DNA from: Stappia sp. MMSF_3263
GTDB lineage: Bacteria > Pseudomonadota > Alphaproteobacteria > Rhizobiales > Stappiaceae
Direction of reading: 5' to 3'
Length of the DNA stretch: 64,000 nucleotides
NCBI RefSeq assembly: GCF_030733745.1
Contig: NZ_JASHIK010000008.1
Coordinates: forward strand, 62,001-126,000
This document shows positions 32,371-52,106 of the stretch, in pieces (position 1 is the stretch's first letter; every line of letters begins with the position of its first letter). A program made the position numbers and the translations under genes. The notes beneath the pieces were generated by a model. That model did not search any database, had not been told where the DNA came from, and saw nothing but the letters and a program-made list of their open reading frames with translations.

Positions 32371-33129
32371 ATGCTGAGACTTCTTATCGCGCTTTGCGCC
32401 CTTTTGCCCCTGTCGCTGGGCGCAGTCGCCGCCGAACTCGAAATCCGCGACATCGTCATCGGCACCGGAGAGGAAGCCGTTCCCGGGTCGACCGTGACAG
32501 TGCACTACACGGGCTGGCTCGCCAATGGCACGAAGTTCGACTCAAGCCTCGATCGAGGCGAGCCCTTCTCCTTTCCGCTCGGGGCAAGCCGCGTGATCCG
32601 AGGCTGGGATCAGGGGGTCGAGGGGATGCGGGTCGGCGGCAAGCGCGAACTCGTCATCCCTCCCGAACTGGGCTATGGCGCGCGTGGTGCGGGCGGCGTC
32701 ATCCCGCCCAACGCGATACTGCGCTTCGAGGTCGAGCTGCTCGCCGTCTCGAAGGCCAATTTCGGCAGTCTCGACAATGATGCGCTGAAACGGAAACTCG
32801 CCGACGGCGCTGTTCTGGTCGACATTCGCCGACCCGAGGAATGGAAGGAAACGGGTGTTATCGAGGGCGCCCGTCTCCTCACCTTCTTCGATGGAAGCGG
32901 CAAGGTGAATCCCGGCTTTCTCGCAGACTTCACGGCTCTGGCCGACAGGAACGATCCCGTCGTGCTGATCTGCCGAACCGGCAGTCGTTCCTCCGTTGTC
33001 GCCCGCTATTTGGCGGAGCGCGCCGGCTACAGCAAGATCGACAGCGTCGAGAAGGGCGTCATGAACTGGATCGCGGAGGGCAACCAGGTCACGACCGCGT
33101 CCCTGCCGGAAAATTGCTGGCTTTGCTGA
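32371..33129 (+). CDS. Periplasmic FKBP-type prolyl isomerase fused to a rhodanese domain
   Basis: A 252-residue protein: signal peptide [20 protein letters not shown] (cleavage near 21), an FKBP domain (about 23-118) with [37 protein letters not shown] and [20 protein letters not shown], then a rhodanese-like domain (about 125-240) with [14 protein letters not shown] and the active-site loop [18 protein letters not shown] containing the catalytic cysteine. ATG 32371 was chosen because it begins the signal peptide. The fusion suggests combined folding and sulfur/thiol handling in the periplasm. Its end overlaps the convergent CDP-alcohol transferase gene by 41 bases. Confidence 0.93.
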
Positions 33130-33778
33130 CGCCGTCGTCCGGCCCCCACTCATCCTTCTGCGCCATGTCGGCGGCGCGCAACAATGAGACCGCGCGCCGG
33201 ATGCGCTGCACCGACGTTGCATGCGCAAGAAGCGCATAGATCGCCAGGCCGGCGGCGATGGTCGTCCCGGCAGGCAGACCGACAAGCGACAGCCCTCCCG
33301 CTGCAAGCAGCATCGCGCAAAGAAAAATGATCCGTTCGAGCCGCTCGAAAAAGTCCGGCCAGGCCTCGTTGCTGATCGGGATCTCGATCGCCGTGCGTGC
33401 TTTCGCATAGCTGGTCATGACCCCGCCGGAAAAGGCGATCAGGGCAAGCGCCCATTGATCGTTGACCGCCGCGATCCCCGCGAGCACCACCAGTTCCTGA
33501 TAGCGGTCGACCATCGCATCGAAATAACCGCCGGACTTGGTGCACATGTCGCGCCGCCGTGCCACGGCACCGTCCAGCGCATCGAAGGCGAAGGCAAAGG
33601 CGAGCATAAGACCGAACAGCGCTGGCTTTTCATGCCAAAGGTAGAGCGCCGAGCTCAGCGCCACGAGCGCAAGCCCTGTTGCCGTCACCTGGTTGGGGCT
33701 CATGCCGGCCTTGATGAGGGGGCTCGCCATGCGTTCCCACAGCGGGTCGATATGGCGCTTGAACAATCCGTCGATCAT
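33089..33778 (-). CDS. CDP-alcohol phosphatidyltransferase, PI-phosphate-synthase-like
   Basis: A 229-residue membrane enzyme with the full CDP-alcohol transferase motif [27 protein letters not shown] (D-x2-D-G-x2-A-R-x8-G-x3-D-x3-D) at about 66-92 and six hydrophobic segments. [12 protein letters not shown] followed by [10 protein letters not shown] resembles archaetidyl-/phosphatidylinositol-phosphate synthases, in which SY-x-RAR and R-x-ER are conserved; this family joins inositol-1-phosphate to CDP-diacylglycerol. An inositol-1-phosphate synthase is encoded at 44061-45173. Ends inside the convergent FKBP gene and follows the FGGY kinase by 29 bases. Substrate is inference. Confidence 0.8.
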
Positions 33779-33807
33779 GGCGTTGTCCTTGAGGCCGAAA
33801 GGCCGGT

Positions 33808-35418
33808 TCAGCGATAAAGCGCAATGAGGCGCGAACGGTGCCGTTCGAGCATGGCGGAGCGGGCATCGCTCAAGGCCATGCCCTCGTGCTGCGGATCGTA
33901 GGTCTCGGCCGGCCCCGCCGCCAGCGCCGGCGCCGCGGCCTCCACGCTGTCAAACCAGCCCAGGCCCGTACCGGCGATTGCCGCCGCTCCGCGAACGCCC
34001 GCATGCCGGGGTGCGCGAACCACGACACGCCGTTTGAGAGCATCGGCAAGCCCCTGCGCAAAAAGCGGGTTCACCGCAGCCCCGCCGACGAGCGGCAGGG
34101 GCGCGTCCTGAAGCACGCTCTTCTGTTTCGACACCTTGGAGAGAGCCCAGCGCATGTTGAGCGCGACACCTTCCAGCACCGAGCGCAACAGAGCGCTCCG
34201 GTCATGTTGCATGCCCAGCCCGTAGAACACGCCGCGCAGGCGGTCGTCATCGACGGGAACCCGTTCGCCCGCCAGCCACGGCACGAACAGCGGGTCATCG
34301 GCCCGCGCCGGACCGATCCCTTCATAGGCACGGGCAAGTGCGCTATCGGCATCGCCTTCCGCCTCGCCGGTCAGGCGTGCGGCCCAGGCAAAGGCCGTGC
34401 CCGCGCTTTCCTGAGTCGCAATCAGCAAGGGCCTGTAGCCGACGCTTGAGGAAATTGTCGCGAAGGAATGAAAGATGTCGATTCGCCGGGAGGGGAAGAA
34501 CCCGCTGAGCCAGGCACTGGTGCCGGCATAGGCGTGCAATTCGCCATCGGCCATCGCGCCGGAGCCAATGGCCGTCGCCGCCACGTCGCCGGCACCGGCA
34601 ATCACCGGCAATCCCGGCTCCAACCCGAGTTCGGTGGCCGCATCCGTCAGCAGACCACCAACCGTTTCGGTGCCGTCGACGATCTCCGGCAACTTGTCGA
34701 GCGGAATACCCAGCCGTCCGGCAAGATAGGCGGACCAGCCTTCCCGCCCCTTCCTGGTGTCCATCATCCATGTGAGGTTGGCGCTGTCGGCAGTCGTCAC
34801 GAAGCGCCCCGTCGCCCTGTTCAACAACCAGTCCTTGACGTCGAGAAGCTTGTGCGCACTGGCGAAGACGTCCGGCTCGAACTGTTTCAGCCACAGCATC
34901 TTGGCCGGCGGATCCATGCCGTTGTGCGATGGCGCGCCATTGGCGATGCGGGTCCATGCAAGGAGCTTGTCGAGCCGATAGCCGGCGAGCGAGGGAAAAC
35001 CGCCATTCATCTGCCGCGACATCGTGCCGGCCCGCTTGTCGAGCCAGACGATCGCCGGACGCAAGGGCGTGCCCGACGCGTCGCTCGCGACAACACCGCA
35101 CATCTGTGCGCAGAACACCAATGCGGCGGCGCGTTCGGCAAGATCGGGTATCAGCCCGCGCAGGTCCGCGATGCCTTCGGCGAGGGCCTTCCACCAGTCG
35201 GCCGGAGCCTGCTCCGCCTGGCCGGACGCGGGAAGCGACAATGGATAGGCCCGCATCGCGACCGCCTTCAGTGCCAGCGACCTGTCGAGCGCGGCAAGCT
35301 TGACGCCGGATGTCCCGAAATCGGCGGCAATCACGAGGTCGCGCGACAACCGGCCGGCACCGGCAATCCCGGCATCGCGCACATCCGAGTCCTGAGAACC
35401 GTTTTCGCCCACTTGCAT
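33808..35418 (-). CDS. FGGY-family carbohydrate kinase
   Basis: A 536-residue sugar/polyol kinase with N-terminal IAADFGTSGVKLAALD (phosphate-1 motif), VWLDKRAGTMSRQM, GAGDVAATAIGSGAMADGELHAYAGTSAWLSGFFP in the C-terminal ATPase half and PLPLVGGAAVNPLFAQGLAD, HAGVRGAAAIAG near the end. Closest in style to xylulokinase-like members. Start chosen at 35418; upstream in-frame ATGs at 35448 and 35466 have no better ribosome site. It shares a strand and 29-base spacing with the PI-phosphate-synthase-like gene, so it may phosphorylate a polyol head group, but this is not proven by sequence. Confidence 0.88.
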   Translation of the reverse strand: MQVGENGSQDSDVRDAGIAGAGRLSRDLVIAADFGTSGVKLAALDRSLALKAVAMRAYPLSLPASGQAEQAPADWWKALAEGIADLRGLIPDLAERAAALVFCAQMCGVVASDASGTPLRPAIVWLDKRAGTMSRQMNGGFPSLAGYRLDKLLAWTRIANGAPSHNGMDPPAKMLWLKQFEPDVFASAHKLLDVKDWLLNRATGRFVTTADSANLTWMMDTRKGREGWSAYLAGRLGIPLDKLPEIVDGTETVGGLLTDAATELGLEPGLPVIAGAGDVAATAIGSGAMADGELHAYAGTSAWLSGFFPSRRIDIFHSFATISSSVGYRPLLIATQESAGTAFAWAARLTGEAEGDADSALARAYEGIGPARADDPLFVPWLAGERVPVDDDRLRGVFYGLGMQHDRSALLRSVLEGVALNMRWALSKVSKQKSVLQDAPLPLVGGAAVNPLFAQGLADALKRRVVVRAPRHAGVRGAAAIAGTGLGWFDSVEAAAPALAAGPAETYDPQHEGMALSDARSAMLERHRSRLIALYR

Positions 35419-35577
35419 TGCCCCCGCCTGCTGGCATCTCCAGAGCATTTGCTCCTTCGCCGGCATCGGGTTTATAGATTTCGGCGCCCCTTGAGAACCG
35501 GGGAAACAGGCCGGGGCCGCATCGGCACCACGGACGGCAACGTCCGCACATGACTTCCGGAGACTGGTGACATACCG

Positions 35578-36585
35578 ATGCCAACCGATCGAGCCGACGC
35601 TCTTCAGCCCAATTGCGTCGACGTCGTCTACACATGGGTCGACGACAGCTTCCCCGGCTATGCGCAAACGTTGCGCGCTCACGCGACCGACCGACGCGAC
35701 ACCAATCCCAATCGCACACGCGACAATCTCGATCTTCTGCGCTATTCGCTGCGCTCGCTCGAAGCCTACATGCCCTTCGTGCGCCGGGTTCACATCGTAA
35801 GCTGCCGGCCGCAGGTGCCGGCATGGCTCGACACCGGCCATCCGGACATCCGCGTCGTGCATCACGACCGGATCATGGCGCCGGAGGTCCTGCCGACATT
35901 CAACTCCTTTGCCATCGTCAGCCATCTGGCGAGGATCCCGGACCTGTCTCCCCAATTTCTCTATTTCGAGGACGACATGCTGGCATTCCGGCCGCTGAAG
36001 CCAGAAGACTTCAAGGCGGCGGACGGGCGGTCGAAGGTCTTTCTGGAAGACCGGCCGTCGCCCGTGATGTCAGCGCTCGACCCGGCCAGTTCGAGCCCCT
36101 GGAACCTTGCGCTCGCCAGGGCCAACGAGGTGCTGGCGGTGGCATTCGGCGCAAAACCCTTTTCCTATCTTGCCCACGGACCGCAAATCATCGACCGGGA
36201 TCTCTTCGCACGGATGTGCGAGCATTTTGCCGACGAGATCGCCGCCACGCGCCAGAGCCGTTTCCGGGCCCACGGCAATGTCCCTCCGGAATATCTCTAT
36301 CCGCATTTCGCGCTGGAAACCGATGCGGCCGCCCGGGCCGACCGCGCGGACGTCCGGCAGATGGCCGGCTATGCGTCGCTGGAGAACTGGTACGCCTGGA
36401 CCTGGCTGCAACTGCGCCGGCTGGAGTGGCGCAAACCCGCCACGATCACATTGAACGACAGCTTCGAAGACGCCCCCAATCCGCGCGTCGTCGCCCATGT
36501 GCGCCACACTCTCGAACGCTGGTACCCGCGTCCCTCGCGTTTCGAGAAAGCCGTTCAGCCAGGCAACGCCAGCGCCTCTCGGTAG
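35578..36585 (+). CDS. Stealth-family sugar-phosphate transferase
   Basis: A 335-residue protein with the four Stealth regions: CR1 CVDVVYTWVDDSFPGY (residues 13-28), CR2 NLDLLRYSLRSLEAYMPFVRRVHIVSCRP and VLPTFNSFAIVSHLARIPDLSPQFLYFEDD, and later CR3/CR4 segments with SYLAHGPQIIDRDLF and LENWYAWTWLQLRRLEW. Stealth proteins move hexose-1-phosphate from nucleotide sugars onto glycans (capsule polymers, GlcNAc-1-phosphotransferase). No membrane segment, so probably cytosolic. Diverges from the kinase and overlaps the convergent glycosyltransferase by 31 bases. Acceptor unknown; a glycolipid is plausible. Confidence 0.9.
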   Translation: MPTDRADALQPNCVDVVYTWVDDSFPGYAQTLRAHATDRRDTNPNRTRDNLDLLRYSLRSLEAYMPFVRRVHIVSCRPQVPAWLDTGHPDIRVVHHDRIMAPEVLPTFNSFAIVSHLARIPDLSPQFLYFEDDMLAFRPLKPEDFKAADGRSKVFLEDRPSPVMSALDPASSSPWNLALARANEVLAVAFGAKPFSYLAHGPQIIDRDLFARMCEHFADEIAATRQSRFRAHGNVPPEYLYPHFALETDAAARADRADVRQMAGYASLENWYAWTWLQLRRLEWRKPATITLNDSFEDAPNPRVVAHVRHTLERWYPRPSRFEKAVQPGNASASR

Positions 36586-37688
36586 ATCTCCACAAGCCGC
36601 CTGCCCGTCGCCGGCAGATCAAGGTCCCGGGCACGCGCCGCCGACCAGCGGCTCAGCGCGGCCCGCTGGTCCGGCGTTGCAGCCAGTTCGGCAATGCGCC
36701 TGGCCAACGCCTCTGCATCTTCAGGCGGGACCAGCAGGCTGGCGCCCTCTTCGTGCCCCAAGACACCGGTGTAGCCGGCATTGGCCGCCGCAACCGGCAG
36801 CGCGCCGGCGGCCATTGCCTCGACGAGCACAAGACCGAAACTCTCGCCATAGGGTGCGGGAGCAACGAAGATATCCCAGCCGGCCACCAGTTGCCGCGCC
36901 GTTGCATCATCGGGTGTGTCGACCAGTCGTATGCGATCGCCATGGATACCCGCCATCGCTTCGCGGACAGACGGCAGAAGCGGTCCGCCTCCCGCTATCG
37001 TCAGATATGCGTTCGGAACCTGCGCGGCGATCAACGGCCAGGCTTTGAGAAGAACATGCAGGCCCTTGCGGGCCTCGAACCGGCCCAGAAAGCCGACCTC
37101 CAGCCGCCCGGGCATACGTTGCCCTTGCCCGGAACCGGCCTCCCGCCAGGGAGCCAGGTTCACGGCCGGCGGCAGAACATGCGCCGTGATGCCTCGCTCT
37201 TGCGGGCGCAGATGTGCCAGCGGCGCCTCCGACGGCACCACGACAGCCTGCGAGCGCTTCATGAAATAGCCGGCGACAGCGTGCAGCGCACGTCCGGACA
37301 ATCCACCGGCATTGGCCGCGGGCAGGGTTGCGTGGAACGTTGTCACCGTCGGGAGATGCAGCCTCCGCCAGATCTGCCAGGCCATCAGCGGGGTCCACGG
37401 CGTATGCAGATGGACGACCTCCGCGCCCCATCCGTGAAGATCCGCCGCCAGGTCCCTCAATTCGCGCCGCCCGGCAAGGCTGACTTCGAACCGGGTGCCG
37501 AACATGGAAACCATGCGCGCCCGACCGCAACAGGTTGCCTCTCCGCCGGCAACGCCGGTAGGCGGATACGGCGTGACGACACGTACCGCGTGCCCCTCTT
37601 CTCTCAGCCAGCGGGACAGGTCGCGGACATGCGACTGCACCCCGCCGGGCCGGGTCATGTCATAAGGACAGATCTGGACGATCTTCAT
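36555..37688 (-). CDS. GT4 glycosyltransferase, PimA-like
   Basis: A 377-residue GT-B enzyme. The N-terminus MKIVQICPYDMTRPGGVQSHVRDLSRWLREEGH has the same plan as mycobacterial PimA, which mannosylates phosphatidylinositol; further VVHLHTPWTPLMAWQI, VTTFHATLP, VGFLGRFEARKGLHVLLKAW (start of donor domain) and PYGESFGLVLVEAMAAGALPVAA (EX7E motif). Overlaps the CDP-alcohol transferase gene by ATGA, so both likely act on one lipid. GT4 membership is sure; the PI-glycosylation role rests on the PimA resemblance and neighbours. Confidence 0.87.
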   Translation of the reverse strand: MKIVQICPYDMTRPGGVQSHVRDLSRWLREEGHAVRVVTPYPPTGVAGGEATCCGRARMVSMFGTRFEVSLAGRRELRDLAADLHGWGAEVVHLHTPWTPLMAWQIWRRLHLPTVTTFHATLPAANAGGLSGRALHAVAGYFMKRSQAVVVPSEAPLAHLRPQERGITAHVLPPAVNLAPWREAGSGQGQRMPGRLEVGFLGRFEARKGLHVLLKAWPLIAAQVPNAYLTIAGGGPLLPSVREAMAGIHGDRIRLVDTPDDATARQLVAGWDIFVAPAPYGESFGLVLVEAMAAGALPVAAANAGYTGVLGHEEGASLLVPPEDAEALARRIAELAATPDQRAALSRWSAARARDLDLPATGRRLVEIYREALALPG

Positions 37689-38419
37689 CGCGGCCCGCTG
37701 TCCCGCCCCTTGGCGAGAACCCCGCTCAGCCCCTCGGCGATATCCGAAAGCCCGTAGACCAGCAGGAACAGCGTCAGAATTGCGAGATGGCCGGTTGCCA
37801 GCGCAAACGCGAGCAGCACCGGTATCAGCCCGCTCAGTCCCGCCAGGAGCGCAAGGATCAGGCCCGTGAAGGTCACCTGTTCCTGCTTCGCCTCAACCGC
37901 TGGAGCCGGCGTGCATGTTTCGGCACGCTCGCCTGCATCGCGCACGACACGCGCGAAAAGCCGGCTCCAGCCGGCGGCCAGCCCGATCGCGCTCCAGAAC
38001 GCGCCTCCCTCCCCTGCACGGTCCGCAAGTATTCCGATGCTGGCGTAGAGCACTCCCCACTGGACCATGTCGACGAGAAAATCGAACGTCGCTCCCCGGA
38101 CACTCGTGCCGCCTGTCGCCCGCGCCAGCCCCCCATCCACGCAGTCGAGCACCTGAAACGCGATGGCGAGACAGACGACGGTCGTGCCGGCCAACGGCAC
38201 CGACGGCAGGAACGCTGCAGGGAGCATCGCAAGCGCCACGACCAACGCCGCAACAGTCACCGCAACGGGCGCAACGCCAAGTCGCGCCAGGGGCACGATC
38301 AGAAGCATGCTCGGCAACCGGTAGAAAACAGCCACCGCCCAGTCGCCTCGCAATTCCGCCTTTAGCTTCCCCCGCCGATATTCGGACCAGAGGCCCTTTA
38401 CGGTTATCGACGGCTGCAT
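37685..38419 (-). CDS. CDP-alcohol phosphatidyltransferase-family protein (second copy)
   Basis: A 244-residue membrane protein with motif DCVDGGLARATGGTSVRGATFDFLVDM, fully conserved in the catalytic D/G/AR/G/D/D positions, and about six hydrophobic segments. The basic N-terminal region GLWSEYRRGKLKAELRGDWAV precedes the first helix. ATG 38419 is preferred; a GTG 21 codons upstream is in frame but its GGGGAGG touches the codon. Coupled to the PimA-like gene and divergent (105-base gap) from a LicC-like nucleotidyltransferase that could make its CDP-activated donor. Possible donors: CDP-inositol, CMP-aminoethylphosphonate or another CDP-alcohol. Confidence 0.82.
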   Translation of the reverse strand: MQPSITVKGLWSEYRRGKLKAELRGDWAVAVFYRLPSMLLIVPLARLGVAPVAVTVAALVVALAMLPAAFLPSVPLAGTTVVCLAIAFQVLDCVDGGLARATGGTSVRGATFDFLVDMVQWGVLYASIGILADRAGEGGAFWSAIGLAAGWSRLFARVVRDAGERAETCTPAPAVEAKQEQVTFTGLILALLAGLSGLIPVLLAFALATGHLAILTLFLLVYGLSDIAEGLSGVLAKGRDSGPR

Positions 38420-38524
38420 CCCCGTTCGCCCGTTCACGCTTGCTTTCAGCAGTGCCAACCGGCTATTGCCCCGGCCGGACACCTCCCCTATTACTGGACT
38501 GCCTTACCACACTCCGACGGTTTC

Positions 38525-39277
38525 ATGCTCGATATCAAAGCGATTTTTCTGGCCGCCGGTCGCGGCGTGCGGATGGGTGAACGCGGGCGCATGACGCCCA
38601 AGGGCCTTATCTCGATCGGCGAGCGGACCTTCCTCGAGGAGGCGGTAACGACCCTGGCCGACAATGGAATGGGCAACGCTCGCGTCGTCACGGGCCATCT
38701 TGCCGAGCAGTATCGCGATCTGGCTGCAATCCGTTGCCCCGATCTCGACCTGCGGCACAATCCCGATTTCGAGGTGAAGGGTTCGCTTCAAAGCCTGCTC
38801 GTCGGGCTTGAGGGAGAGGACGGTCCCTGCCTGCTGCTCGAATCGGATCTCATTTTCGAACCGCGTGCTGTCGCCACCGTCATCGCGCGACCGGATCGCT
38901 CCGCCTTGCTTGTGTCAGGTGCGACCGGAGCGGGCGACGAGGTTCATGTCTGGGCCGACAAAACAGAGGGCGACCACTGTCTTCGCGATATGTCGAAGCT
39001 TGTCGATCGCTGGCCCGATGTTCCTCATGGCGAGCTTGTCGGCCTCACCTATCTCACCGGGGACGCGGTCCGTTACCTGAAGCGCATCGGTCCCGATCTC
39101 GTGCTCGACAACGCCATGGAAGACTATGAAAACGGTCTTGTGGAGCTTGCCCGCTCACATCCCGTGACCTGTCCGAAAGTGACTGATCTTGCCTGGGCCG
39201 AGGTCGACAACGAGGCGATGCTGGCCCGCGCCGCCGAGCAGGTGTATCCGCGCATTCTCGCCGCCCGGGCGCGCTGA
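38525..39277 (+). CDS. LicC/PntC-like nucleotidyltransferase
   Basis: A 250-residue nucleotidyltransferase: KAIFLAAGRGVRMGERGRMTPKGL (P-loop-like with catalytic lysine, residues 5-28), VVTGHLAEQYRDLA, GPCLLLESDLIFEP (metal-binding Asp) and LAWAEVDNEAMLARA, the second Asp. It belongs with sugar-phosphate, phosphocholine (LicC) and phosphonate (PntC) cytidylyltransferases; inositol-1-phosphate cytidylyltransferases have the same fold and are similarly paired with CDP-alcohol transferases in DIPP synthesis. No clear ribosome site before the ATG. Substrate undecided. Confidence 0.85.
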   Translation: MLDIKAIFLAAGRGVRMGERGRMTPKGLISIGERTFLEEAVTTLADNGMGNARVVTGHLAEQYRDLAAIRCPDLDLRHNPDFEVKGSLQSLLVGLEGEDGPCLLLESDLIFEPRAVATVIARPDRSALLVSGATGAGDEVHVWADKTEGDHCLRDMSKLVDRWPDVPHGELVGLTYLTGDAVRYLKRIGPDLVLDNAMEDYENGLVELARSHPVTCPKVTDLAWAEVDNEAMLARAAEQVYPRILAARAR

Positions 39278-39324
39278 CGACCGCACGTTGTGCCGGACAC
39301 TCCGGGAGCGGCCGGTTCCCTTCA

Positions 39325-40560: not shown

Positions 40561-40564
40561 CGCT

Positions 40565-41878
40565 TCAAGCCCGCTCGCGCACGGGCCGCAAAAGCGCCGC
40601 TGCCCTGTCCCGAACAGCCATGGTCGCCGCCAGGGACGCGGCCACGCCCACGCCCATCGCCGCAAGCAGCGCCATTCGAGGCTCAACCGCCGACAAGCCG
40701 CCGAGAAGGTTGCGCAAGAGAATATCGAAGACAAGAAGCGTCGCACATGCCAGCGGCATCGCCAGCATTCCGGCAACGCCGCGCCCGGCGAAGGCACAGG
40801 CAATCAGCGCCAGAAGTGGCGCCACCAGCACCGCGACGGCCCGCGCCAACCTCTCGCCTGCAATCCGCCGCGCCTCGCGCGCCGTCTCGCCGCCCGCCGC
40901 GTCAGGCCCCAGTGCCTCGAACACCGTCCACTCGCTCGCCACATCCTGGCGCAGCGCATGGTTTAGGATATTGTCGAGACTGACCGGCAGGGAGACGTTC
41001 TCCACCTTCACCTGCGGAAGGGACGGGACGTTCGCCATGTCGGTCTGCCCGAGCGCCAGCAGGTTGGGGCCGCGTCCCCGGCGGAGCACTCCGGCACCCT
41101 CGCGATGTTCCACCCGGACAAAATCATAGGCGATGACGCGTCCCAGGCCGAGATTGTAGTCCCCCTTCAAGTCGGGGCCGATCAGCTTCCAGTCGCCGGC
41201 CTGCGTCACCCGCCAACGCCCTGCCTCGCCGGGCTGGTGAACGAAAAGACTCTCATGCGGTGGATCAACACTCGTATCGGAGAGCGCAGCGAAGGTCTTG
41301 CCCCGGATCGTCTCGATCAGGGTACCCTCGCTCGGACCGGTAATGCGGTCGAACAGGAGTTCGCTCTTCAACTTGAAGATAACCGTGCGCGTCGCATTGC
41401 GTGCCAGCGGATCGATCACGCCGGAAACGGCAAGGCTTGCAAGGAAGGCAAGTCCGCCGAGCGACAGAGCCACGCGAACCGGCAGGGTCCACGCAACCCC
41501 CGCTGCCGACAGCGCCACCATCTCGCGCTCCTCACGGGCGGCGGAGAAAGCGAAGTAACCGCCGATGACACAGGCAAGCGCCAGGGCGAAGTCGAATATC
41601 TCGGGCGAGGTGAGCAACAGCACGGAAACCGCGGAAGCAAGGTCACCGCCATTGCCCAGCACCTCCTCCAGGATGCCCGTGAGCTTTTCCGCCAGGAATA
41701 CGATCTCGATCGTCACGACGACGATCGCGACCCTGCCCAAGGCACGCAGGAAGAGAGATCGCGCGGCAAGCGACATCAACGGTCTCACCGACCGGTTGCC
41801 TCGTTCGATGCGAGCGGCTCCGTCCCCGCCAGGCATTCCCGTCCCGGATTGTCCTTCCGTCTCATCGCTCCCCGTCAT
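40565..41878 (-). CDS. LptF-like lipid-export permease (YjgP/YjgQ family), first of pair
   Basis: A 437-residue protein with AREEREMVALSAAGVAWTLPV at the coupling helix, three N-terminal and three C-terminal membrane segments and a periplasmic domain between. A charged 34-residue N-terminal extension precedes SLAARSLFLRALGRVAIV; the true start could be ATG 41776 or 41836. Together with the following gene it should form the LptFG-type channel that lifts a lipid from the inner membrane. Flanked by sphingoid- and inositol-lipid genes. Confidence 0.82.
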   Translation of the reverse strand: MTGSDETEGQSGTGMPGGDGAARIERGNRSVRPLMSLAARSLFLRALGRVAIVVVTIEIVFLAEKLTGILEEVLGNGGDLASAVSVLLLTSPEIFDFALALACVIGGYFAFSAAREEREMVALSAAGVAWTLPVRVALSLGGLAFLASLAVSGVIDPLARNATRTVIFKLKSELLFDRITGPSEGTLIETIRGKTFAALSDTSVDPPHESLFVHQPGEAGRWRVTQAGDWKLIGPDLKGDYNLGLGRVIAYDFVRVEHREGAGVLRRGRGPNLLALGQTDMANVPSLPQVKVENVSLPVSLDNILNHALRQDVASEWTVFEALGPDAAGGETAREARRIAGERLARAVAVLVAPLLALIACAFAGRGVAGMLAMPLACATLLVFDILLRNLLGGLSAVEPRMALLAAMGVGVAASLAATMAVRDRAAALLRPVRERA

Positions 41879-41961
41879 GTTTCATGCTATTGCGGCACCG
41901 GCATCGGTCCCGTGCTCGCGGGTGCGCCGCGATTCCGTCACGACATCATAGGGCCGTCGCC

Positions 41962-42441
41962 ATGTCCCGTCTTGTTCATAGAGTGAAGCAGGGCCTCGCG
42001 CATACGCTCGCCCTTTCCTTTGGCGCCGGCCTGTCTCCGGTCTGGCCGGGAACGGTGGGCGCGGCGGTGGGTCTCCTTTGCGCCGTCCTCCTCCGCACTG
42101 TCCCGCCAGCCGGCCAGGTCGCCGGACTGGTTCTGATGTTGATGATCGGCATATGGGCATCCGCGATTGTCGCCAGGGCATGCCGGGAAGACGATCCGCA
42201 ATGCGTCGTCATCGATGAAAGCTTCGGCGCGGCCGCCACCGTCCTGGCCCTCCCGCCGGAACCGCTGTGGTGGGCCTTGGGCTTCGTTGCCTTCCGCTTC
42301 TTCGATATCGTCAAGCCATTCCCGGTCAACTGGGTGCAGGACCATGTGAAAGGCGGCACCGGCATCATGCTCGATGACGCCGCCGCCGCCCTCTATGCCA
42401 TCGCCGTACTCTGGCCCGTGTCCCGATTGCTTGCTGTGTAA
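41962..42441 (+). CDS. PgpA-like phosphatidylglycerophosphatase family protein
   Basis: A 159-residue membrane phosphatase: GAGLSPVWPGTVGAAVG near 20-36, CVVIDESFGAAATVL (active-site Asp-Glu), FRFFDIVKPFPVNWVQ and GGTGIMLDDAAAALYAI, all PgpA hallmarks. PgpA normally dephosphorylates phosphatidylglycerophosphate, but in the neighbourhood of a PI-phosphate-synthase-like enzyme it could dephosphorylate PI-phosphate or a ceramide analogue. Divergent from the LptF-like gene, convergent with CdsA. Confidence 0.9.
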   Translation: MSRLVHRVKQGLAHTLALSFGAGLSPVWPGTVGAAVGLLCAVLLRTVPPAGQVAGLVLMLMIGIWASAIVARACREDDPQCVVIDESFGAAATVLALPPEPLWWALGFVAFRFFDIVKPFPVNWVQDHVKGGTGIMLDDAAAALYAIAVLWPVSRLLAV

Positions 42442-42460
42442 GGACGGAACAATCCCGGTC

Positions 42461-43228
42461 TCACCAAAGACCCGCCAGCCACACAAGGGCGGGCGCCGCG
42501 ATCAGCCAGGCATCCGTGATATCGAGAAGCCCCCCTTGCCGCGGCAGCACCTGCGGATAGTCCTTTACACTGGAGGCCCTCTTCAAGCGCGAGCCGGCAA
42601 GGTCCCCGGCAATCGCCGTCACCGCAATCAGGATCGCGGCGGACAGCGACGCGCCGATGCTCCAGTCGACAACGAGCGGACCGGCCAGCGCGGCCGTCAG
42701 CCCCAGCATGACGGCGCCCGCGACAAGCCCCTCGACGGTTTTTCGGGGACTTAGCCTGGGAAAGGCCGGCCGGCGCCCGAACAGCTTTCCGCCAAGCAAT
42801 GCATAGCTGTCATAGGTTTCGACGAGAAGAAACGAGACGAGCACCAGTCCCGAGTTTTCGGGTTCACGCGCCACCATGACGAACAGCAGCACGGGAAAGC
42901 CCGGAAAGACGGCGACCTCGACGGCAAGCCGCATGCGCTGGGTCGCCGTTGCACCCGGCCAGCGCAGGCCCGCGACGCACAAGGCCTCGTAGGCGATCCG
43001 GACGGCCAGCAGGCCGAGCAGCGCGTCCAGCCAGGGCGATCCGAGCGCGAAAGGCAGCAGGGCGCCGGCAACGATTGCACATTCGGTGGCAAAGACCGGC
43101 CAGAGAGGACGCGCGCGCGGTGCCGTCGCCGGCAGCAGGCTGCCGACACCCAGCAGCACCGCGCCAATGACCAGGCAGGCGAGAACAGCAACGGCGGCGA
43201 GTTCGAAGGAGAGTGTCTGGGTCGACAT
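42461..43228 (-). CDS. Phosphatidate cytidylyltransferase (CdsA-family)
   Basis: A 255-residue, seven-to-eight-helix membrane protein. CTP-transferase signatures: RLSPRKTVEGLVAG and GDLAGSRLKRASSVKDYPQV with LPRQGGLLDITDAWL (the S-x-x-K-R-x(3)-K-D and GG-x-LD-x-x-D motif). Makes CDP-diacylglycerol, or a CDP-activated analogue, from CTP. This is very probably a second, specialised copy, since it lies five bases behind the reductase gene in the lipid operon and not in the usual housekeeping context with uppS and dxr. ATG 43228 chosen from the family N-terminus. Confidence 0.88.
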   Translation of the reverse strand: MSTQTLSFELAAVAVLACLVIGAVLLGVGSLLPATAPRARPLWPVFATECAIVAGALLPFALGSPWLDALLGLLAVRIAYEALCVAGLRWPGATATQRMRLAVEVAVFPGFPVLLFVMVAREPENSGLVLVSFLLVETYDSYALLGGKLFGRRPAFPRLSPRKTVEGLVAGAVMLGLTAALAGPLVVDWSIGASLSAAILIAVTAIAGDLAGSRLKRASSVKDYPQVLPRQGGLLDITDAWLIAAPALVWLAGLW

Positions 43229-43233
43229 CGCGC

Positions 43234-44064
43234 CTATCCGCGACGGGTGCGCGCTACCCGCGTCTGCCAGATCCGCAGAGCCGGCGCCAGCAGGCTGTGC
43301 GCGTGGGCAAGCAATGTCATCTGTGCGCCCGGCGCAACGATGAAGCGCCCGTTCTCCACCCCCTTGACGATACGTTCCGCCACCGCCTCGGCCGACCACA
43401 ACCCGCCACCGGCTGTGATTTCCCGGGTCGCTTGCGGCTTTGTCTCGTTTTCGGCGGCGAGTTGCGGCGTGTCGGTGTCCGGCGGGTAAGCCAGCGTTAC
43501 GCCGATGCCATGCGGGGCAAGCTCAACGCGCAACACTTCTGCAAGACCGCGCATGGCGAATTTCGAAGGTGCGTAGGCCGAATAACCGTAGATGCCGAAG
43601 AAGGCCGCGCCAGACGAAACGAAGACCATGCGTCCGCCGCCCGCCGCCGCCATCCGCGGCGCCAGCGCGTGAGCAACATTCAGCGCGCCCATGTAATTGG
43701 TGCGCATCTGGGCGGCATGATCGTCAAGCGGTTGATCGAGAAAGTGCCCCGGGCGGGCAATACCCGCATTCATCACGGCCCAGCGAGGCACGCCCAGCAC
43801 ATCGACAAGGTCGACCAATGCGGCACTGACGGCCACCGGATCGCCGACATCGGCGGAGCGGCACTCGACACGCGCGTGCGGAACCTCGGCGACAACGGCA
43901 TCCCGGACCTCGGCAAGACGCTCCGTCCCTCGGGCCACCAGCGCAAGGTTGTATCCACGCTGGGCGAGCAGCAATGCCAGCGCCCTGCCAATACCACTGC
44001 TGCCGCCGGTGATCAGAGCCACGGGGCGCATTGCGTCGCCGCCGGACGAGGTCGCCGTGCTCAC
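43234..44064 (-). CDS. 3-ketosphinganine (3-ketodihydrosphingosine) reductase-like SDR
   Basis: A 276-residue short-chain dehydrogenase: ITGGSSGIGRALALLLA (nucleotide binding, 18-34), NAGIARPGHFL, catalytic S150/S151, Y164 and K168 in GIYGYSAYAPSKFAMRGLAE. The stretch LAYPPDTDTPQLAAENETKP (191-210) is the diagnostic element of eukaryotic KDSR/Tsc10-type reductases. It reduces 3-ketosphinganine to sphinganine with NADPH. ATGA overlap with the MIPS gene. Presence of a serine palmitoyltransferase-like gene two genes upstream makes the sphingoid assignment strong. Confidence 0.88.
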   Translation of the reverse strand: MSTATSSGGDAMRPVALITGGSSGIGRALALLLAQRGYNLALVARGTERLAEVRDAVVAEVPHARVECRSADVGDPVAVSAALVDLVDVLGVPRWAVMNAGIARPGHFLDQPLDDHAAQMRTNYMGALNVAHALAPRMAAAGGGRMVFVSSGAAFFGIYGYSAYAPSKFAMRGLAEVLRVELAPHGIGVTLAYPPDTDTPQLAAENETKPQATREITAGGGLWSAEAVAERIVKGVENGRFIVAPGAQMTLLAHAHSLLAPALRIWQTRVARTRRG

Positions 44065-45173
44065 GCGGCCCGTTCCCCGGCGAAAGCAAGAAGGCGGTCA
44101 TATCCTTCCGCATCCTCGATCTGAACCGGAGGATGCTTGAAAAGAAATGCGCTCGCATCCTCGACCGGACCGGAAAGCCCCTTGTCGCGGGCGATTGCCG
44201 CGCAACGAATGGCGATCAGCGCCATCGCCGCCGCATTGGGCGAATCCTCGACCTCGAGCCGCATCTCGACATGGGTGCGCACCCCGCCGAAAAGCCTGCC
44301 CTCGAGCCGCACATAGGCAACCTTGCGATCCTCCAGCCAGGGCACGTAGTCGGACGGGCCGATGCGGATCTCGTTTTCGGTGAGACGCGCGTTCATCGCG
44401 GTCTGCACCGCCTCGGTCTTGGACTCGCGCTTCATCGCCAGGCGGTCGCCGTCCATCATGTTGAGAAAATCCGTATTGCCGCCGACATTGAGCTGATAGG
44501 TGCGGTCGACCTTGACCCCGCGCATGTCGGCAAGCCGCGCCAGTGCCCGGTGGGTGATGGTCGCGCCGAACTGCGCCTTGAAGTCGTCACCGAGGATCGG
44601 CAGACCGGCGCTGGTGAAGCGGGCAGCCCACACCGGGTCGGAGGCTATGAAGACCGGAATCCCGTTGACGAAGGCGCATCCCGCCTCCAGCGCGCATTCG
44701 GCATAGAACTGCGTCGCCTCGATCGAACCGACCGGCAGGAAATTGATCATCACCTCCGCCTCGGCCGCGCGCAGCGCCGCGACAATGCCGGCCTTGTCGA
44801 GCGCCGGTGCGCTCGAGACGACGAAGCTGCGATCCGGCGCCTGGTTGCGCATGAAAGCCGAGACCCCGTCAAGATCGGGACCTCGCAGCACCGGCGCCGT
44901 CATTTCCGAGAGGTCCCGATGGAAGATCTCGGTGCAGTTGGGAAGCGCCACCGCCGCCTCCCCGACAGTCCGACCGACCTTGCGCGCATCAACATCAAGC
45001 GCCAGCACAATCTCGACATCCTGCGGGCGATATCCGGCAAGAACGGGAAACGGAACGCCGACGGCGGCCTCGCCAAGCGCGCGACAATAGGCGACGCCCT
45101 GGACAAGCGAACTGGCGCAATTGCCGGCACCCACAACGGCAGTGCGGATCGTTCTGGCGGAAGAAGCGGTCAT
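44061..45173 (-). CDS. Inositol-1-phosphate synthase
   Basis: A 370-residue myo-inositol-1-phosphate synthase of the short prokaryotic type: RTAVVGAGNCASSLVQGV (NAD-binding, about 8-25), DVDARKVGR, NFLPVGSIEATQFYAE, FVNGIPVFIASDP, ILGDDFKAQFGATITHR (catalytic lysine), and LNVGGNTDFLNMM. Makes inositol-1-phosphate from glucose-6-phosphate. ATG 45173 is chosen; the longer frame upstream has no family similarity. Genes for PI-phosphate-synthase-like, CdsA and PimA-like enzymes are in the region, so inositol is probably destined for lipid. Confidence 0.95.
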   Translation of the reverse strand: MTASSARTIRTAVVGAGNCASSLVQGVAYCRALGEAAVGVPFPVLAGYRPQDVEIVLALDVDARKVGRTVGEAAVALPNCTEIFHRDLSEMTAPVLRGPDLDGVSAFMRNQAPDRSFVVSSAPALDKAGIVAALRAAEAEVMINFLPVGSIEATQFYAECALEAGCAFVNGIPVFIASDPVWAARFTSAGLPILGDDFKAQFGATITHRALARLADMRGVKVDRTYQLNVGGNTDFLNMMDGDRLAMKRESKTEAVQTAMNARLTENEIRIGPSDYVPWLEDRKVAYVRLEGRLFGGVRTHVEMRLEVEDSPNAAAMALIAIRCAAIARDKGLSGPVEDASAFLFKHPPVQIEDAEGYDRLLAFAGERAA

Positions 45174-45308
45174 GATCGTGTTGTTACCCCCGAACCCGGC
45201 CCGGCTGCATGGTCCGCGCGCCGTCCGGGCATCCTTTGCCCACACCCGGAAACCCTGTTCCGGGTGGAAATCTCCTGCCCGCCGGCCTGGTCGCCGGCGG
45301 AGCAAGGG

Positions 45309-45995
45309 TTACTCTATCTGGATGCGTTCGACCAGCGCACGGCCGGTCTGCGTATCGTGGCCGGTGACCACAACTTCCCGGACACTCGGCATGAGGCCGC
45401 TTTCATCCACATCGACATAGGCGTAGCGCATTCGCATCTGGCGCCCGTCCACCGGAAGCAGCAGTTCCGCCCGCCCCGGTTCGACCAAGCGCAAGGTCGC
45501 CCTGCGCTCCGGGTAGGAAACCACATAAAGGGAGAAGACATCCGGATCGTCGGTGGCGCGGGCGCGCACGCCAAAAGCGAAACTGTCCTCGATCATCTTC
45601 AGCGCAAGCCGCTCGCCCGTCGTGTTGAAGCGCCGCCAGTAGGCCACGATCGGCTGGCGCGGATCGAGCTTGCCATCGTCGAGAAACCGCGCGGCATAGA
45701 CGACCGTGTTCGAGTTGGTGGACCGCTGCAGGTAGAACACCATGCCCGGATCGTCGGGCACCGGGAAGTCCGGACGGACAACCGGCAGGCTGTCGACCTC
45801 TTCGACGACAGACCCGCTGGCGCGCTGCTGCGCGCTCCCATGGGTGATCACGGTGCCTTCCTGGGCGAACGCGGAAACGGCAGGAGCCGCAATCGCGATG
45901 CCCGCGGCCAGCACGCAAGGGACAGGCGAAGGGAGCAGCCGCCATGGCAAGGCCGCAAGCGAGGCGCGCCAGAAGCTCCGTCGGTGCGGTTTCAT
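45309..45995 (-). CDS. DUF4833-like exported protein
   Basis: A 228-residue protein with a long signal peptide (basic MKPHRRSFWRASLAALPWR, hydrophobic core, cleavage near AFAQ-EG at about 44-46). The mature part PDDPGMVFYLQRSTNSNTVV, YAARFLDDGKLDPRQPIVAYWRRF and LKMIEDSFAFGVRAR matches DUF4833 as I remember it. The ATG at 45995 is chosen; a GTG four codons upstream is possible. Between the SPT-like and MIPS genes in the operon, so it belongs to the lipid pathway, perhaps as periplasmic lipid-binding or remodelling protein. Confidence 0.78.
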   Translation of the reverse strand: MKPHRRSFWRASLAALPWRLLPSPVPCVLAAGIAIAAPAVSAFAQEGTVITHGSAQQRASGSVVEEVDSLPVVRPDFPVPDDPGMVFYLQRSTNSNTVVYAARFLDDGKLDPRQPIVAYWRRFNTTGERLALKMIEDSFAFGVRARATDDPDVFSLYVVSYPERRATLRLVEPGRAELLLPVDGRQMRMRYAYVDVDESGLMPSVREVVVTGHDTQTGRALVERIQIE

Positions 45996-46035
45996 CGCAA
46001 GACCCACTCTGCCCGATCCTGCCCCGCGTCCGCCC

Positions 46036-47274
46036 TCAGGCGCCCATCACCGCCGTCTGCAGCTCGCCGCCGGCGCCCGCGTTTCCCGCGACCACTCCGG
46101 CGACAATCCCGATTGCCTTGTCCATCTGCTCGTACGTGTGATCCGCCGAGATGAAGAAGCGGATGCGCGGCTGGTCCTTGGGTACTCCCATCTGGACAAT
46201 CGGCGGTGCATAGACGCCCTGCTCCAATAGCACCTGCGATGCGATCATCGTCTGCATCGAGGTGGCGAAGAGGACGGGCACGACGCCGCATCCGATGGCC
46301 GCACCCGTGTCGAGACCGGCCTCGCGGGCACGATCCCGGAAGTAGAGGGAATTATCGTGGAGACGCGTCACCCGCTGCGGATCGGCCTGCAACTGGTCTA
46401 GCGCTCCATGGGCGCTTCCCAGGGCCGCCGGCGAAAGGCCCACGCTGTAGACGAAACCGGGCAGCGTGAAACGCAGCCATTCGATCACGCCTTGTTCGGC
46501 ACAGATGAACCCGCCCGACGACACAAAGGACTTGGACAAGGTTCCAACGGTCAGCTCTATCCGTTTCGGATCGACGTCGAAATGTTCGCAAAGCCCACGA
46601 CCGGTGGCCCCGAGAACGCCATAGGAATGAGCTTCATCGACAAGCAGCCATGCATCATGCGCTTCCTTCAGCGCCACGAGCCTGGGAAGGTCGGGTATAT
46701 CGCCGTCCATCGAGTACAGCCCCTCGACGACAACAAGGACGTTCCGATACTGGCCCCTGAGCTCGTCAAGCTGACGCTCGAGGTCGTCGAGGTCGTTATG
46801 GGCAAAGACCCGATGATCGTAGCGACCGTTCTTGGCCCCGACGAAAATCGAATTGTGGGCCAGTTCGTCGATCAGCACCAGATCGCGCGGCCCCATCAGG
46901 TAGTTGATAAGGGAGACATTGACGAGATAGCCGCTGACCAGCGACATCGCGTCCCCCACGCCCAGGAAATCGGCCAGCTTGCGCTCAAATACACGGTGAC
47001 CGGCCCGCTCGCCGCCAACGAGGCGCGACGCGCCCACGCCGGTGCCCTGGCGGTGCAGTTCCTCGCTCGCCGCCGCGACCACGTCAGGATGCTTGCTGAG
47101 GCCGAGATAGTCGTAGTGGGCGAAGCTGATGAACGGGATGCCGTTCCGCTCGCAAAGCTCACGTTGCTGGTCGACCGGGAGAAAATAGGGGTTGTGCTGT
47201 TCGATGATTGCCTTGCCGGCAAGGCGAAAACGCCGTTCAGCGACTACGGCAAAGCTCGGCCGATCAGGCTTCAT
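46036..47274 (-). CDS. spt: Serine palmitoyltransferase-like alpha-oxoamine synthase
   Basis: A 412-residue PLP fold-type I alpha-oxoamine synthase. FISFAHYDYLGLSKHPDV (49-66), GVGASRLVGGERAGHRVFE, VVEGLYSMDGDIPDLPRL, VDEAHSYGVLGATGRG (D213, H216) and the PLP lysine K248 in LTVGTLSKSFVSSGG. Could be KBL, AONS or SPT; the KDSR-like reductase in the same operon and absence of tdh or bio genes favour SPT, the first sphingolipid step (serine plus acyl-CoA/ACP). The long Gly-Ala-rich C-terminus is odd. Weak ribosome site before ATG. Confidence 0.85.
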   Translation of the reverse strand: MKPDRPSFAVVAERRFRLAGKAIIEQHNPYFLPVDQQRELCERNGIPFISFAHYDYLGLSKHPDVVAAASEELHRQGTGVGASRLVGGERAGHRVFERKLADFLGVGDAMSLVSGYLVNVSLINYLMGPRDLVLIDELAHNSIFVGAKNGRYDHRVFAHNDLDDLERQLDELRGQYRNVLVVVEGLYSMDGDIPDLPRLVALKEAHDAWLLVDEAHSYGVLGATGRGLCEHFDVDPKRIELTVGTLSKSFVSSGGFICAEQGVIEWLRFTLPGFVYSVGLSPAALGSAHGALDQLQADPQRVTRLHDNSLYFRDRAREAGLDTGAAIGCGVVPVLFATSMQTMIASQVLLEQGVYAPPIVQMGVPKDQPRIRFFISADHTYEQMDKAIGIVAGVVAGNAGAGGELQTAVMGA

Positions 47275-47416
47275 TCTTGTTTACCCCCAGAACCCGATCA
47301 ACTGTCGAAAACAATTCGGGCCTTGTCAATTTCTTCAGTTGCGATATTTGCTTCGGCGACGCCCACAGCAGGAACCTCGCAAGGGGGTTCTGCTGTCCTG
47401 CATGCACCGATGTCAT
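47264..47416 (-). CDS. Possible small protein coupled to the SPT-like gene
   Basis: A 50-codon frame ending 11 bases inside the start of the SPT-like gene, so its stop and the SPT start would be translationally coupled. It would read MTSVHAGQQNPLARFLLWAS then PKQISQLKKLTRPELFSTVD, with an amphipathic helix near the end. GGAAG precedes the ATG by nine bases. No family recognised; codon bias is weak evidence. It might be an uncoupled leader peptide or not translated at all. Confidence 0.33.
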   Translation of the reverse strand: MTSVHAGQQNPLARFLLWASPKQISQLKKLTRPELFSTVDRVLGVNKNEA

Positions 47417-48007
47417 CCATCGGTCTTCCGGCGGTCTGGAAGCCGCAACCTGTCTCGACGACAGGAACGGCAAGATGATCGTAACCGGCGCATCTCCCGC
47501 CAGAGAGCTCCCCAACCCGAAGGTCCGACGCCAGCCGCCGCTATTGAATTCTGTTCAGGCTGATTTCGCTAAATAGCCGAAAGGCGTGGTACTGTCGAGT
47601 AAGCCAACGAAACGCTCACCGCCATCAGACGACCCAACAGCCCCGCAGTCCCTCTGCGCGCCGGACAGGTGCCTGTTCCGTGGCCTGCGCTGCGAAAGGC
47701 GTCACCAAGGATCGCATCCGGCCTGCAACAGGCGGAAATTGCTAGGTTTTGAAACCATCCGATTGGGTCACAAGACAGGCCCTTTGCCGATACGCAACAA
47801 CACCGAGATATGGGGAGGACTGCGACAAGCTGCCTCCGCTTCTCGCACTTTCCTTCTTGGCTGACGTTTTCCACGGCCTCCGGCACGCCTGGGCAGGTGA
47901 ACTTACCCTTGGGAAACTCCGCAAGCCAATGTTTTAATTGATTTTTTTGTAACCGACTCCGCTTTGGCCGATATCATCGGGACGGAGCTCGTTCCAGACC
48001 GGCAAGG
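47417..48007. other. Long gap between the SPT-like and phosphonate genes without a supported gene
   Basis: About 590 bases of lower GC and no convincing reading frame; short open frames on both strands lack ribosome sites and family similarity. It includes an AT-rich segment at 47930-47950 (TTTTAATTGATTTTTTT). It should hold the promoter of the SPT operon and the 3' end of the phosphonate operon. No tRNA cloverleaf seen. Could be the scar of a lost gene. Confidence 0.6.
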
Positions 48008-51912: not shown

Positions 51913-52106
51913 TGGCACCCTGTCCCCTTCTGTCCCCCCGGGCGACCCCAAACGTCCCGGCACCTCATCCCTGAGGCGGCTCATTGGTAACGAAGCCCCG
52001 TGTGAAAGGGAAGACGGCCGCGGCGGACGGAGAACTTCAAATCGCGATGGCAGGATGGTACACTGCAACCTTTAGGGGAATTCGCATGTGACGAGGGGAC
52101 CCGAAA

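Follow-up and report, generated by a model that had tools for sequence, protein, structure and literature searches.

A conserved 17-gene locus in a marine Stappia relative, proposed to make and export an inositol-phosphate lipid bearing 2-aminoethylphosphonate

The Bacteroides BT_1522-1526 inositol-lipid cluster (PMC9246714, PMC8791184) brings together a myo-inositol-phosphate synthase (MIPS), a PI-phosphate-synthase-type CDP-alcohol transferase and a PgpA-like phosphatase. In the Caulobacter phosphosphingolipid region CC_1152-1168, sphingoid synthesis adjoins second copies of LptF and LptG (PMC11324152). The carbon-phosphorus compound 2-aminoethylphosphonate (AEP) is made and activated by the Pnt pathways (Ppm, Ppd, AEPT and PntC), for which LicD-like phosphotransferases and glycosyltransferases are named as neighbours, in a 2019 paper stating that almost nothing was known of how phosphonylated glycans and lipids are made (PMC6697681). 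Sphingophosphonolipids have been described chemically in a bacterium, Bacteriovorax stolpii (work cited by PMC4642753 and PMC5648825), and an inositol-like sphingolipid with no homology to known clusters has been reported in Novosphingobium acidiphilum (PMC9246714). In Trypanosoma cruzi both ceramide and GPI anchors carry AEP, and the same organism makes inositol phosphoceramide (PMC5648825); it is a eukaryote, and its likeness to the system described here is one of chemistry only.

Here we describe a conserved gene block of ~19 kb and 17 genes (33089-52068 of the window, the whole stretch of 64,000 nucleotides analysed) in a marine relative of Stappia; the literature searched, from which most subscription journals were out of reach, yielded no account of it. 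A sequence-only reading had outlined a region from 33089 to 47274 for a sphingolipid or PI-type lipid with a decorated head group. The genes which it listed are present near their assigned positions, with Pfam domain calls that agree, but its end was set too early: past a 733-bp gap upstream of the SPT-like gene the conserved block resumes with three AEP genes on the same strand (48008-52068). Its gene list had also left out an FGGY kinase on the minus strand (33808-35418), opposite which a plus-strand ORF (34468-35553) has no Pfam domain match. We think it rather probable that the 17 genes constitute one locus for lipid biosynthesis and export, with the flow proposed below. Its product would be a lipid that bears inositol phosphate and AEP, probably on a sphingoid backbone, and that has an LptFG pair dedicated to its export. 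The features are:

33089..33778, minus strand: CDP-alcohol transferase A, PI-phosphate-synthase-like (PF01066; NF040950, 122 bits; PDB relatives; motif)
33808..35418, minus strand: FGGY-family kinase (PF00370, PF02782; frame with an ATG start)
35578..36585, plus strand: Stealth-family transferase (PF11380, PF17102)
36555..37688, minus strand: GT4 glycosyltransferase (PF13692, PF00534, PF13439)
37685..38482, minus strand: CDP-alcohol transferase B, candidate AEP transferase (CDP-OH_P_transf, PF01066)
38525..39277, plus strand: PntC-like AEP cytidylyltransferase (NTP_transf_3, PF12804; 6pd1, 109 bits; contact residues kept)
39325..40803, minus strand: LptF/LptG-like permease (PF03739; start codon uncertain)
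40565..41878, minus strand: LptF/LptG-like permease (PF03739)
41884..42441, plus strand: PgpA-like phosphatase (PF04608)
42461..43399, minus strand: CdsA-like cytidylyltransferase with altered signature (PF01148; start codon uncertain)
43234..44064, minus strand: KDSR-like reductase (SDR; best solved relative TSC10)
44061..45305, minus strand: MIPS (PF01658; TIGR03450, 383 bits, below the cut-off of 638; start codon uncertain)
45309..46007, minus strand: DUF4833 protein (PF16117; all-beta model)
46036..47274, minus strand: SPT-like alpha-oxoamine synthase, AOS (PF00155; tree)
47555..47611, minus strand: conserved 57-bp element in the intergenic gap preceding the SPT gene (blastn matches in four of the nine ortholog gaps compared)
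48008..49129, minus strand: AEP transaminase (NF010006, 469 bits, cut-off 296)
49126..50271, minus strand: phosphonopyruvate decarboxylase, Ppd (TIGR03297, 399 bits, cut-off 312)
50275..52068, minus strand: PEP mutase with a fused NTP_transf_3 domain (TIGR02320, 385 bits, cut-off 320; EDKxxxxxNS)

The genes for SPT, DUF4833, MIPS, KDSR and CdsA form a minus-strand operon, as read earlier, in which the first two junctions are gaps of 28 and 3 bp and the later ones overlap (taking the longest start codons); the 57-bp element upstream is a possible promoter. All 17 genes recur in identical order in all 15 other ortholog regions. Because this order is kept throughout, and because none of the nine flanking genes is present in the sister-genus flanks examined, the block is conserved beyond chance; inside the genus, where the flanks are conserved too, gene order is weak evidence. 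In another alphaproteobacterial order a ten-gene core lacking the AEP genes is found at 6 of 7 loci, the genes found keeping the same order; at all seven, the PntC-like gene and transferase B are gained or lost jointly, apart from the core, and PgpA is missing from the locus. The PgpA-like gene is the sole PgpA copy found in the source genome, and within the family PgpA occurs solely inside the block in the three block genomes tested and is absent from the three genomes without it. LptF/LptG copies number four in every tested genome with the block (6/6) and two in every tested genome without it (3/3).

The SPT-like protein, aligned with 3a2b, has K248 (in GTLSKSF), H140, D213 and H216, which we take to be the PLP lysine, the stacking histidine and the Asp/His pair. 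It had been asked whether this protein belongs with KBL/AONS; in a 48-row AOS tree, in which the branch of E. coli BioF is long, it falls outside six KBL/BioF/ALAS-side rows (split support 91/84, not starred), three of which (L129, L131 and L133) are presumably ALAS by likeness. Its sister clade is a polyketide-linked, SgaB-type AOS group, which connects it with the SgaAB sphinganine pair (PMC12134224); unlike that polyketide-derived system, no polyketide synthase was found beside the block's AOS among Pfam matches to the block's genes. The source genome does carry, on contig C14, an SgaAB-like pair, an AOS paralog with a polyketide synthase adjacent. The SPT-like protein lies below the NCBIfam SPT equivalog cut-offs (280 bits against 500 and 640; 200 against 670), its top-scoring model being BioF, also below cut-off; though outside those equivalogs, it would work like an SPT. 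The reductase had been read as KDSR-like on the strength of a diagnostic element, and YPPDTDTP...AEN is indeed found in this SDR, whose nearest solved relative is the KDSR TSC10 (98.2 bits; next solved chain 84.2). In the alignment the AEN-TKP stretch is common to both proteins and the PPDTDTP part, which we assume to be linked to KDSR, is absent from TSC10. With Caulobacter CC_1152-1168 (PMC11324152) the block shares sphingoid genes next to an additional LptF and LptG; compared with that region, it has this KDSR-like reductase in place of CerR, inositol and AEP in place of phosphoglycerate and, on comparison by domains, no AcpR, AasR or CerS match; the SPT lineage also differs, if that of Caulobacter, absent from our tree, is of the classical alphaproteobacterial type.

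Transferase A keeps the CDP-alcohol transferase motif in 22 of 22 rows, and its nearest solved relatives act on inositol phosphate (4o6m is in the list without a stated substrate); its scores are below the NCBIfam cut-offs (NF040950, 122 against 180; NF045883, 74 against 170; NF052561, 67 against 350). Indeed the SPT-like, MIPS, PgpA-like and CdsA-like proteins and transferase A are all below every NCBIfam equivalog cut-off that they matched. The CdsA-like protein matches PF01148 and lacks the canonical HGGxxDRxD element (HGGxLDRID in T. maritima and E. coli CdsA), having QGG..D[I/S/T] instead in 23 of 23 rows. The joint presence of MIPS, PI-phosphate-synthase-like and PgpA-like genes is a feature that the block shares with the Bacteroides cluster (PMC9246714, PMC8791184); relative to that cluster, the block has no PAP2/Aur1-type or GtrA match in Pfam, and adds SPT, KDSR, CdsA-like, LptFG, FGGY kinase, GT4, Stealth and AEP genes. 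The DUF4833 protein, apparently secreted to judge by eye from an N-terminal hydrophobic stretch, provides a further parallel, as two Bacteroidota (Cytophagales) clusters that resemble the Bacteroides one in composition have DUF4833 alongside PgpA, PAP2 and a CDP-alcohol transferase; in two of four plasmid matches it lies outside any inositol cluster, which counts against such an association.

The AEP trio of PEP mutase, Ppd and AEP transaminase each exceed the curated NCBIfam cut-offs, and the EDKxxxxxNS motif of the PEP mutase is kept in 16 of 16 rows. The nucleotidyltransferase previously called LicC-like proved to be PntC-like: it scores 109 bits against Treponema PntC (6pd1) and 29 against LicC, the signature Arg and Lys of PntC are present in the alignment, and Glu occupies both AEP amine-contact positions in 18 of 18 rows. 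Because the AEP genes are present and the cytidylyltransferase is PntC-like, the head-group decoration is more likely AEP than phosphocholine. The predicted sphingolipid or PI-type lipid with a decorated head group is in part supported, by protein families, tree and comparative genomics, although the AEP genes had been missed and the cytidylyltransferase misnamed. PEP mutase passes its cut-off in all seven block-bearing genomes tested from the Stappia clade and in none of four tested family genomes that lack the block. AEP transaminase does so in all five genomes tested that carry both transferase B and the PntC-like gene, and in none of the three core-only genomes tested; it is also present in one of three tested family genomes without the block, which counts against the linkage, and the PEP mutase of one genome (G692) sits in a hydroxyethylphosphonate-type rather than an AEP locus, which counts against the AEP reading. 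The block resembles the Pnt pathways (PMC6697681) in its AEP synthesis, in a PntC with AEP-contact residues, and in a PEP mutase-PF12804 fusion with a second nucleotidyltransferase nearby, and differs from them in tying AEP genes to a CDP-alcohol transferase within a sphingoid/inositol lipid locus.

No ceramide synthase had been seen in the region, and none is among the block's Pfam domain calls, nor are acyl-carrier, acyl-ACP-synthetase or N-acyltransferase domains (Caulobacter being compared by domains only). PF04339, to which we take Caulobacter CerS to belong, does not track the block, occurring in nine of nine genomes with or without it. Likewise no Aur1-type enzyme tracks it (Aur1-like PF14378 is matched in 6 of the 11 genomes that have the block and in all 6 that lack it), and no PAP2 match is found among its genes by Pfam, hence no Aur1-type IPC synthase in the cluster.

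Gene content, protein families, gene order, conserved motifs and the co-occurrence of the block with the extra LptFG pair and, within the family, with PgpA are observed; we infer every reaction in the following scheme, the reaction order and the AEP acceptor. Serine and an acyl thioester would be condensed by the SPT-like enzyme, whose product the KDSR-like enzyme would reduce to a sphinganine-type base. MIPS would supply inositol phosphate, which transferase A would couple to a lipid that the block's own CdsA-like enzyme had activated, and sphingoid and inositol would end in one molecule; removal of the extra phosphate would, in the Stappia clade, fall to the PgpA-like phosphatase. The GT4 enzyme would add a sugar, and Stealth may add a phospho-sugar. 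AEP made by PEP mutase, Ppd and transaminase would be converted to CMP-AEP by the PntC-like enzyme and passed by transferase B to the lipid or its glycan, and the second LptFG pair, perhaps with DUF4833, would carry the lipid to the outer membrane.

It is unlikely, though deserving of weight, that the locus instead makes at least two separate lipids, a glycosylated PI on ordinary diacylglycerol and an AEP-bearing sphingoid lipid, or the two with their decorations exchanged, which share one exporter with no all-in-one molecule. One Bacteroides inositol cluster does yield both PI-DAG and inositol dihydroceramide (PMC9246714), no Aur1-type enzyme tracks the block, and the PntC-like gene and transferase B vary apart from the core at 7 of 7 loci in the other order; the 17 genes nevertheless stay together in one order in 15 of 15 regions, with a single dedicated LptFG pair. 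There is a small chance that the PntC-like enzyme and transferase B use phosphoethanolamine, phosphocholine or inositol phosphate, with AEP destined for another surface polymer. This would suit one genome (G753) which carries that pair and in which a profile search found no PEP mutase above cut-off; yet both contact glutamates are kept there too, and the PntC and LicC scores speak against it. Transferase B has as close folds IPCT-DIPPS, PI-phosphate synthases and choline/ethanolamine phosphotransferases, which agrees with such substrates, although fold does not tell the substrate. The PEP mutase has an NTP_transf_3 domain of its own, a further point for this reading, but the nucleotide loop of this fused domain is altered in 16 of 16 rows.

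We also regard as improbable that the AOS takes another amino acid or acyl donor to give a lipid that is not strictly a sphingolipid, such as one with a 1-deoxy base or derived from an alpha-aminoketone. The unreached SPT cut-offs, the BioF top model and the polyketide-linked sister clade would fit this; against it, a KDSR-like reductase follows in the operon, and polyketide-linked SgaB, its own sequence outside our tree, yields sphinganines (PMC12134224).

A CDP-sphingolipid route is put forward with little confidence. A kinase (perhaps the FGGY protein) would phosphorylate ceramide or the sphingoid base, which the CdsA-like enzyme with its altered signature would convert to a CDP-activated sphingolipid, and transferase A would join it to inositol phosphate with no Aur1-type transferase, the Stappia version afterwards receiving AEP from CMP-AEP. 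Such a route puts the core enzymes in a single line. If true, inositol sphingolipids would have one more biosynthetic route, and the AEP-bearing inositol lipids of T. cruzi a counterpart in bacteria.

For inositol lipids of Alphaproteobacteria the locus provides candidate genes. In named marine strains it also provides a candidate set that would make AEP, activate and transfer it, and export the product; natural variants with and without the AEP module exist.

Every gene listed by the sequence-only reading, which placed a combined sphingoid-base and inositol-lipid region at 33089-47274, is present by gene and domain calls. The extent it gave was too short, however: genes for PEP mutase, phosphonopyruvate decarboxylase and 2-aminoethylphosphonate (AEP) transaminase, each exceeding its curated cut-off, continue the region 5′ of the SPT-like gene, on that gene's strand and upstream of it across a 733-bp gap. 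The features referred to below are:

33089-33778, CDP-alcohol transferase, PI-phosphate-synthase-like (transferase A)
33808-35418, minus strand, FGGY-family kinase, absent from the earlier list
37685-38482, CDP-alcohol transferase, candidate AEP transferase (transferase B)
48008-52068, minus strand, PEP mutase, phosphonopyruvate decarboxylase and AEP transaminase (AEP trio)
33089-52068, the block of 17 genes, with a ten-gene core of SPT, DUF4833, MIPS, KDSR, CdsA, two Lpt, GT4, FGGY and transferase A

The locus is real and conserved. In a survey of 61 genomes (that of Stappia sp. MMSF_3263, 5.0 Mb, included), SPT orthologs, found at at least 74% identity, occur in 13/14 genomes of its genus and 3/3 of sister genus g7, and in none of the 20 remaining Stappiaceae genomes or the 24 from the order's other families; the one genome of the genus without an ortholog is 89% complete with 7% contamination. 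Twenty regions were fetched, 15 with other SPT orthologs and five with paralogs or paralog kin, and a co-conserved set, which the sequence-only reading proposed to look for, does recur: all 17 genes of the enlarged block stand in identical order in 15/15 ortholog regions. Within the genus gene order is weak evidence, because the flanks are conserved there too (9/9 flanking genes adjoin the block in genome G002, 8/9 in G007); in the sister genus the block is intact with 0/9 flanking genes in the flanks fetched (G024 both sides, G029 one side). In one scan of 11 loci, from which the own genome was possibly excluded, the closest named relatives were Stappia species, Hongsoonwoonella zoysiae and one Rhodobacteraceae MAG. 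Beside the block, at 52446-54910, an AcuI-type acrylyl-CoA reductase and a class III CoA-transferase, adjoined by a branched-chain-amino-acid-type ABC transporter, possibly serve acrylate or DMSP metabolism.

DUF4833 is rare in Alphaproteobacteria: it exceeds its cut-off in 2/289 genomes sampled across the class, the own genome among them (a third match is weak and contains two stops), and in 3/299 of a phylum sample, namely the own genome, G019 and G082, all Alphaproteobacteria. The order of G082 has it in 7/195 genomes, G082 included, and 6/7 of these loci keep the ten-gene core in the same order; the seventh, in genome G692, has no SPT, FGGY or transferase A within the 34.7 kb fetched. Two of the seven loci have both the PntC-like gene and transferase B, and the other five have neither; one locus has Stealth, and none has the AEP trio or PgpA. 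As the PntC-like gene and transferase B co-occur, separately from the core, they look like a module added onto the lipid core.

The nucleotidyltransferase called LicC-like by the sequence-only reading is better matched by PntC of Treponema denticola (109 bits, vs 29 for LicC). Glu104 and Glu196 of Tde-PntC are reported to contact the AEP amine (PMC6697681), and by an alignment read by eye their counterparts here are E106 and E202; both glutamates are conserved in 18/18 rows, as are the Arg and Lys of the signature. PEP mutase exceeds its cut-off in 8/18 genomes tested, these being 7/7 Stappia-clade block genomes and G692, and in 0/4 Stappiaceae genomes without the block and 0/6 genomes of the other order besides G692. 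G753 carries the PntC-like/transferase B pair, yet no PEP mutase above cut-off. The G692 arrangement is of hydroxyethylphosphonate type: its PEP mutase carries a fused PF01467 cytidylyltransferase domain, a TPP decarboxylase and an Fe-ADH lie alongside (contig C16, fetched locus L107, 8944-12955), and a sulfotransferase and a glycosyltransferase are nearby. AEP transaminase exceeds its cut-off in 5/5 tested genomes having the PntC-like/transferase B pair; three of them encode it within the block, G753 and G692 at another site. The corresponding counts are 0/3 for the core-only genomes tested and 1/3 for the tested Stappiaceae genomes without the block. External AEP uptake would account for G753 and G692, an explanation drawn from few genomes. 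The block's PEP mutase (50275-52068) is itself fused to an NTP_transf_3 domain, which may differ in role from the PntC-like enzyme because its nucleotide loop (residues about 363-385) is altered, AA[TS]RG...PKCM, in 16/16 rows. The predicted structure of transferase B is of good quality (mean pLDDT 82), but its closest folds span several substrate classes.

For the inositol branch, the top models for transferase A are archaetidylinositol-phosphate and PI-phosphate synthase, at scores below their cut-offs; its PDB relatives include IPCT-DIPPS and PI-phosphate synthases, and its catalytic motif is kept in 22/22 rows. PgpA is confined to the block in 3/3 tested Stappiaceae genomes with it and found in 0/3 without it; in three genomes of the other order there is one copy each, outside the locus. 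Since PgpA thus tracks the block within the family, a role as dedicated PI-phosphate phosphatase would fit, by analogy with that reported for BT_1525 (PMC9246714). DUF4833 adjoins a CDP-alcohol transferase on a Hymenobacter plasmid, and on a Spirosoma oryzicola plasmid (L073, 7140-8429) one annotated gene of an inositol-lipid-like cluster holds both; PgpA, GtrA and PAP2 genes lie near in each, as in BT_1522-1526. DUF4833 of Parabacteroides and Emticicia lacks such a setting, and the domain has no confident structural relatives. In the CdsA-like protein QGG..D[I/S/T] replaces the canonical HGG..DR (checked in T. maritima and E. coli CdsA) in 23/23 rows, a departure compatible with an unusual lipid substrate. 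Across the genomes tested, no Aur1-type enzyme follows the distribution of the block.

A tree of 48 rows unites the SPT-like protein and its orthologs with the proteins of the other order and one from an Acidisoma plasmid in a single clade (support 100/99). Joined to this clade at 100/100 is a sister group made up of the own-genome paralog, which adjoins a 2536-aa polyketide synthase, two plasmid-encoded proteins with type I polyketide synthases annotated next to them, and nine further rows; neighbour-gene annotation covers the paralog and the two plasmid proteins. Proteins of classical SPT type come next outward, and KBL/BioF/ALAS-side rows split off (91/84, with E. coli BioF on a long branch), in keeping with the SPT-like assignment first made. 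The polyketide-linked SgaB, whose sequence lies outside this tree, is reported to yield sphinganines (PMC12134224). The SPT-like protein falls below the NCBIfam SPT cut-offs, and "works like SPT" is therefore better founded than membership in the named SPT equivalogs. The reductase read as KDSR-like matches KDSR TSC10 best among solved structures (98 bits; next 84), sharing an AEN-TKP stretch. A ceramide synthase was looked for without success, and the single N-acyltransferase family screened occurs in all genomes tested, with or without the block.

The paralog locus (L046, contig C14 20500-40400, at 8107-18878) is SgaAB-like: a second alpha-oxoamine synthase (AOS), 46-48% identical, adjoins the reducing polyketide synthase and a capsule-synthesis gene. 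Plasmid AOS relatives in Pseudomonas and Caballeronia adjoin capsule or polysaccharide-export and LTA-synthase genes. This proximity of AOS/polyketide synthase loci to capsule genes hints that polyketide-derived sphingoids may serve as capsule anchors. The Acidisoma plasmid locus (L070, 19127-24378; AOS 54% identical to the block's), with an SDR, a sterol-desaturase-family protein, glycosyltransferases and capsule genes alongside, possibly makes another sphingoid-type product. Upstream of the SPT gene, two short DNA blocks (47555-47611 and 47275-47332), each with blastn matches in 4/9 ortholog gaps compared, are a possible promoter and leader.

Genomes with the block encode four LptF/LptG proteins (6/6 tested) and those without it two (3/3); in Caulobacter, too, the sphingolipid region contains an additional LptF and LptG, which are reported as presumed sphingolipid carriers (PMC11324152).

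By our approximate judgement, the block is highly likely to be one functional unit and very likely makes CMP-AEP, quite likely an inositol phospholipid and likely a sphingoid base. A CDP-sphingolipid reading, bolder than our main one, has a small probability. Known enzyme kinds are joined here in a combination for which we found no description in the literature searched, and its product is probably a sphingoid/inositol (glyco)lipid decorated with AEP and served by a dedicated exporter.
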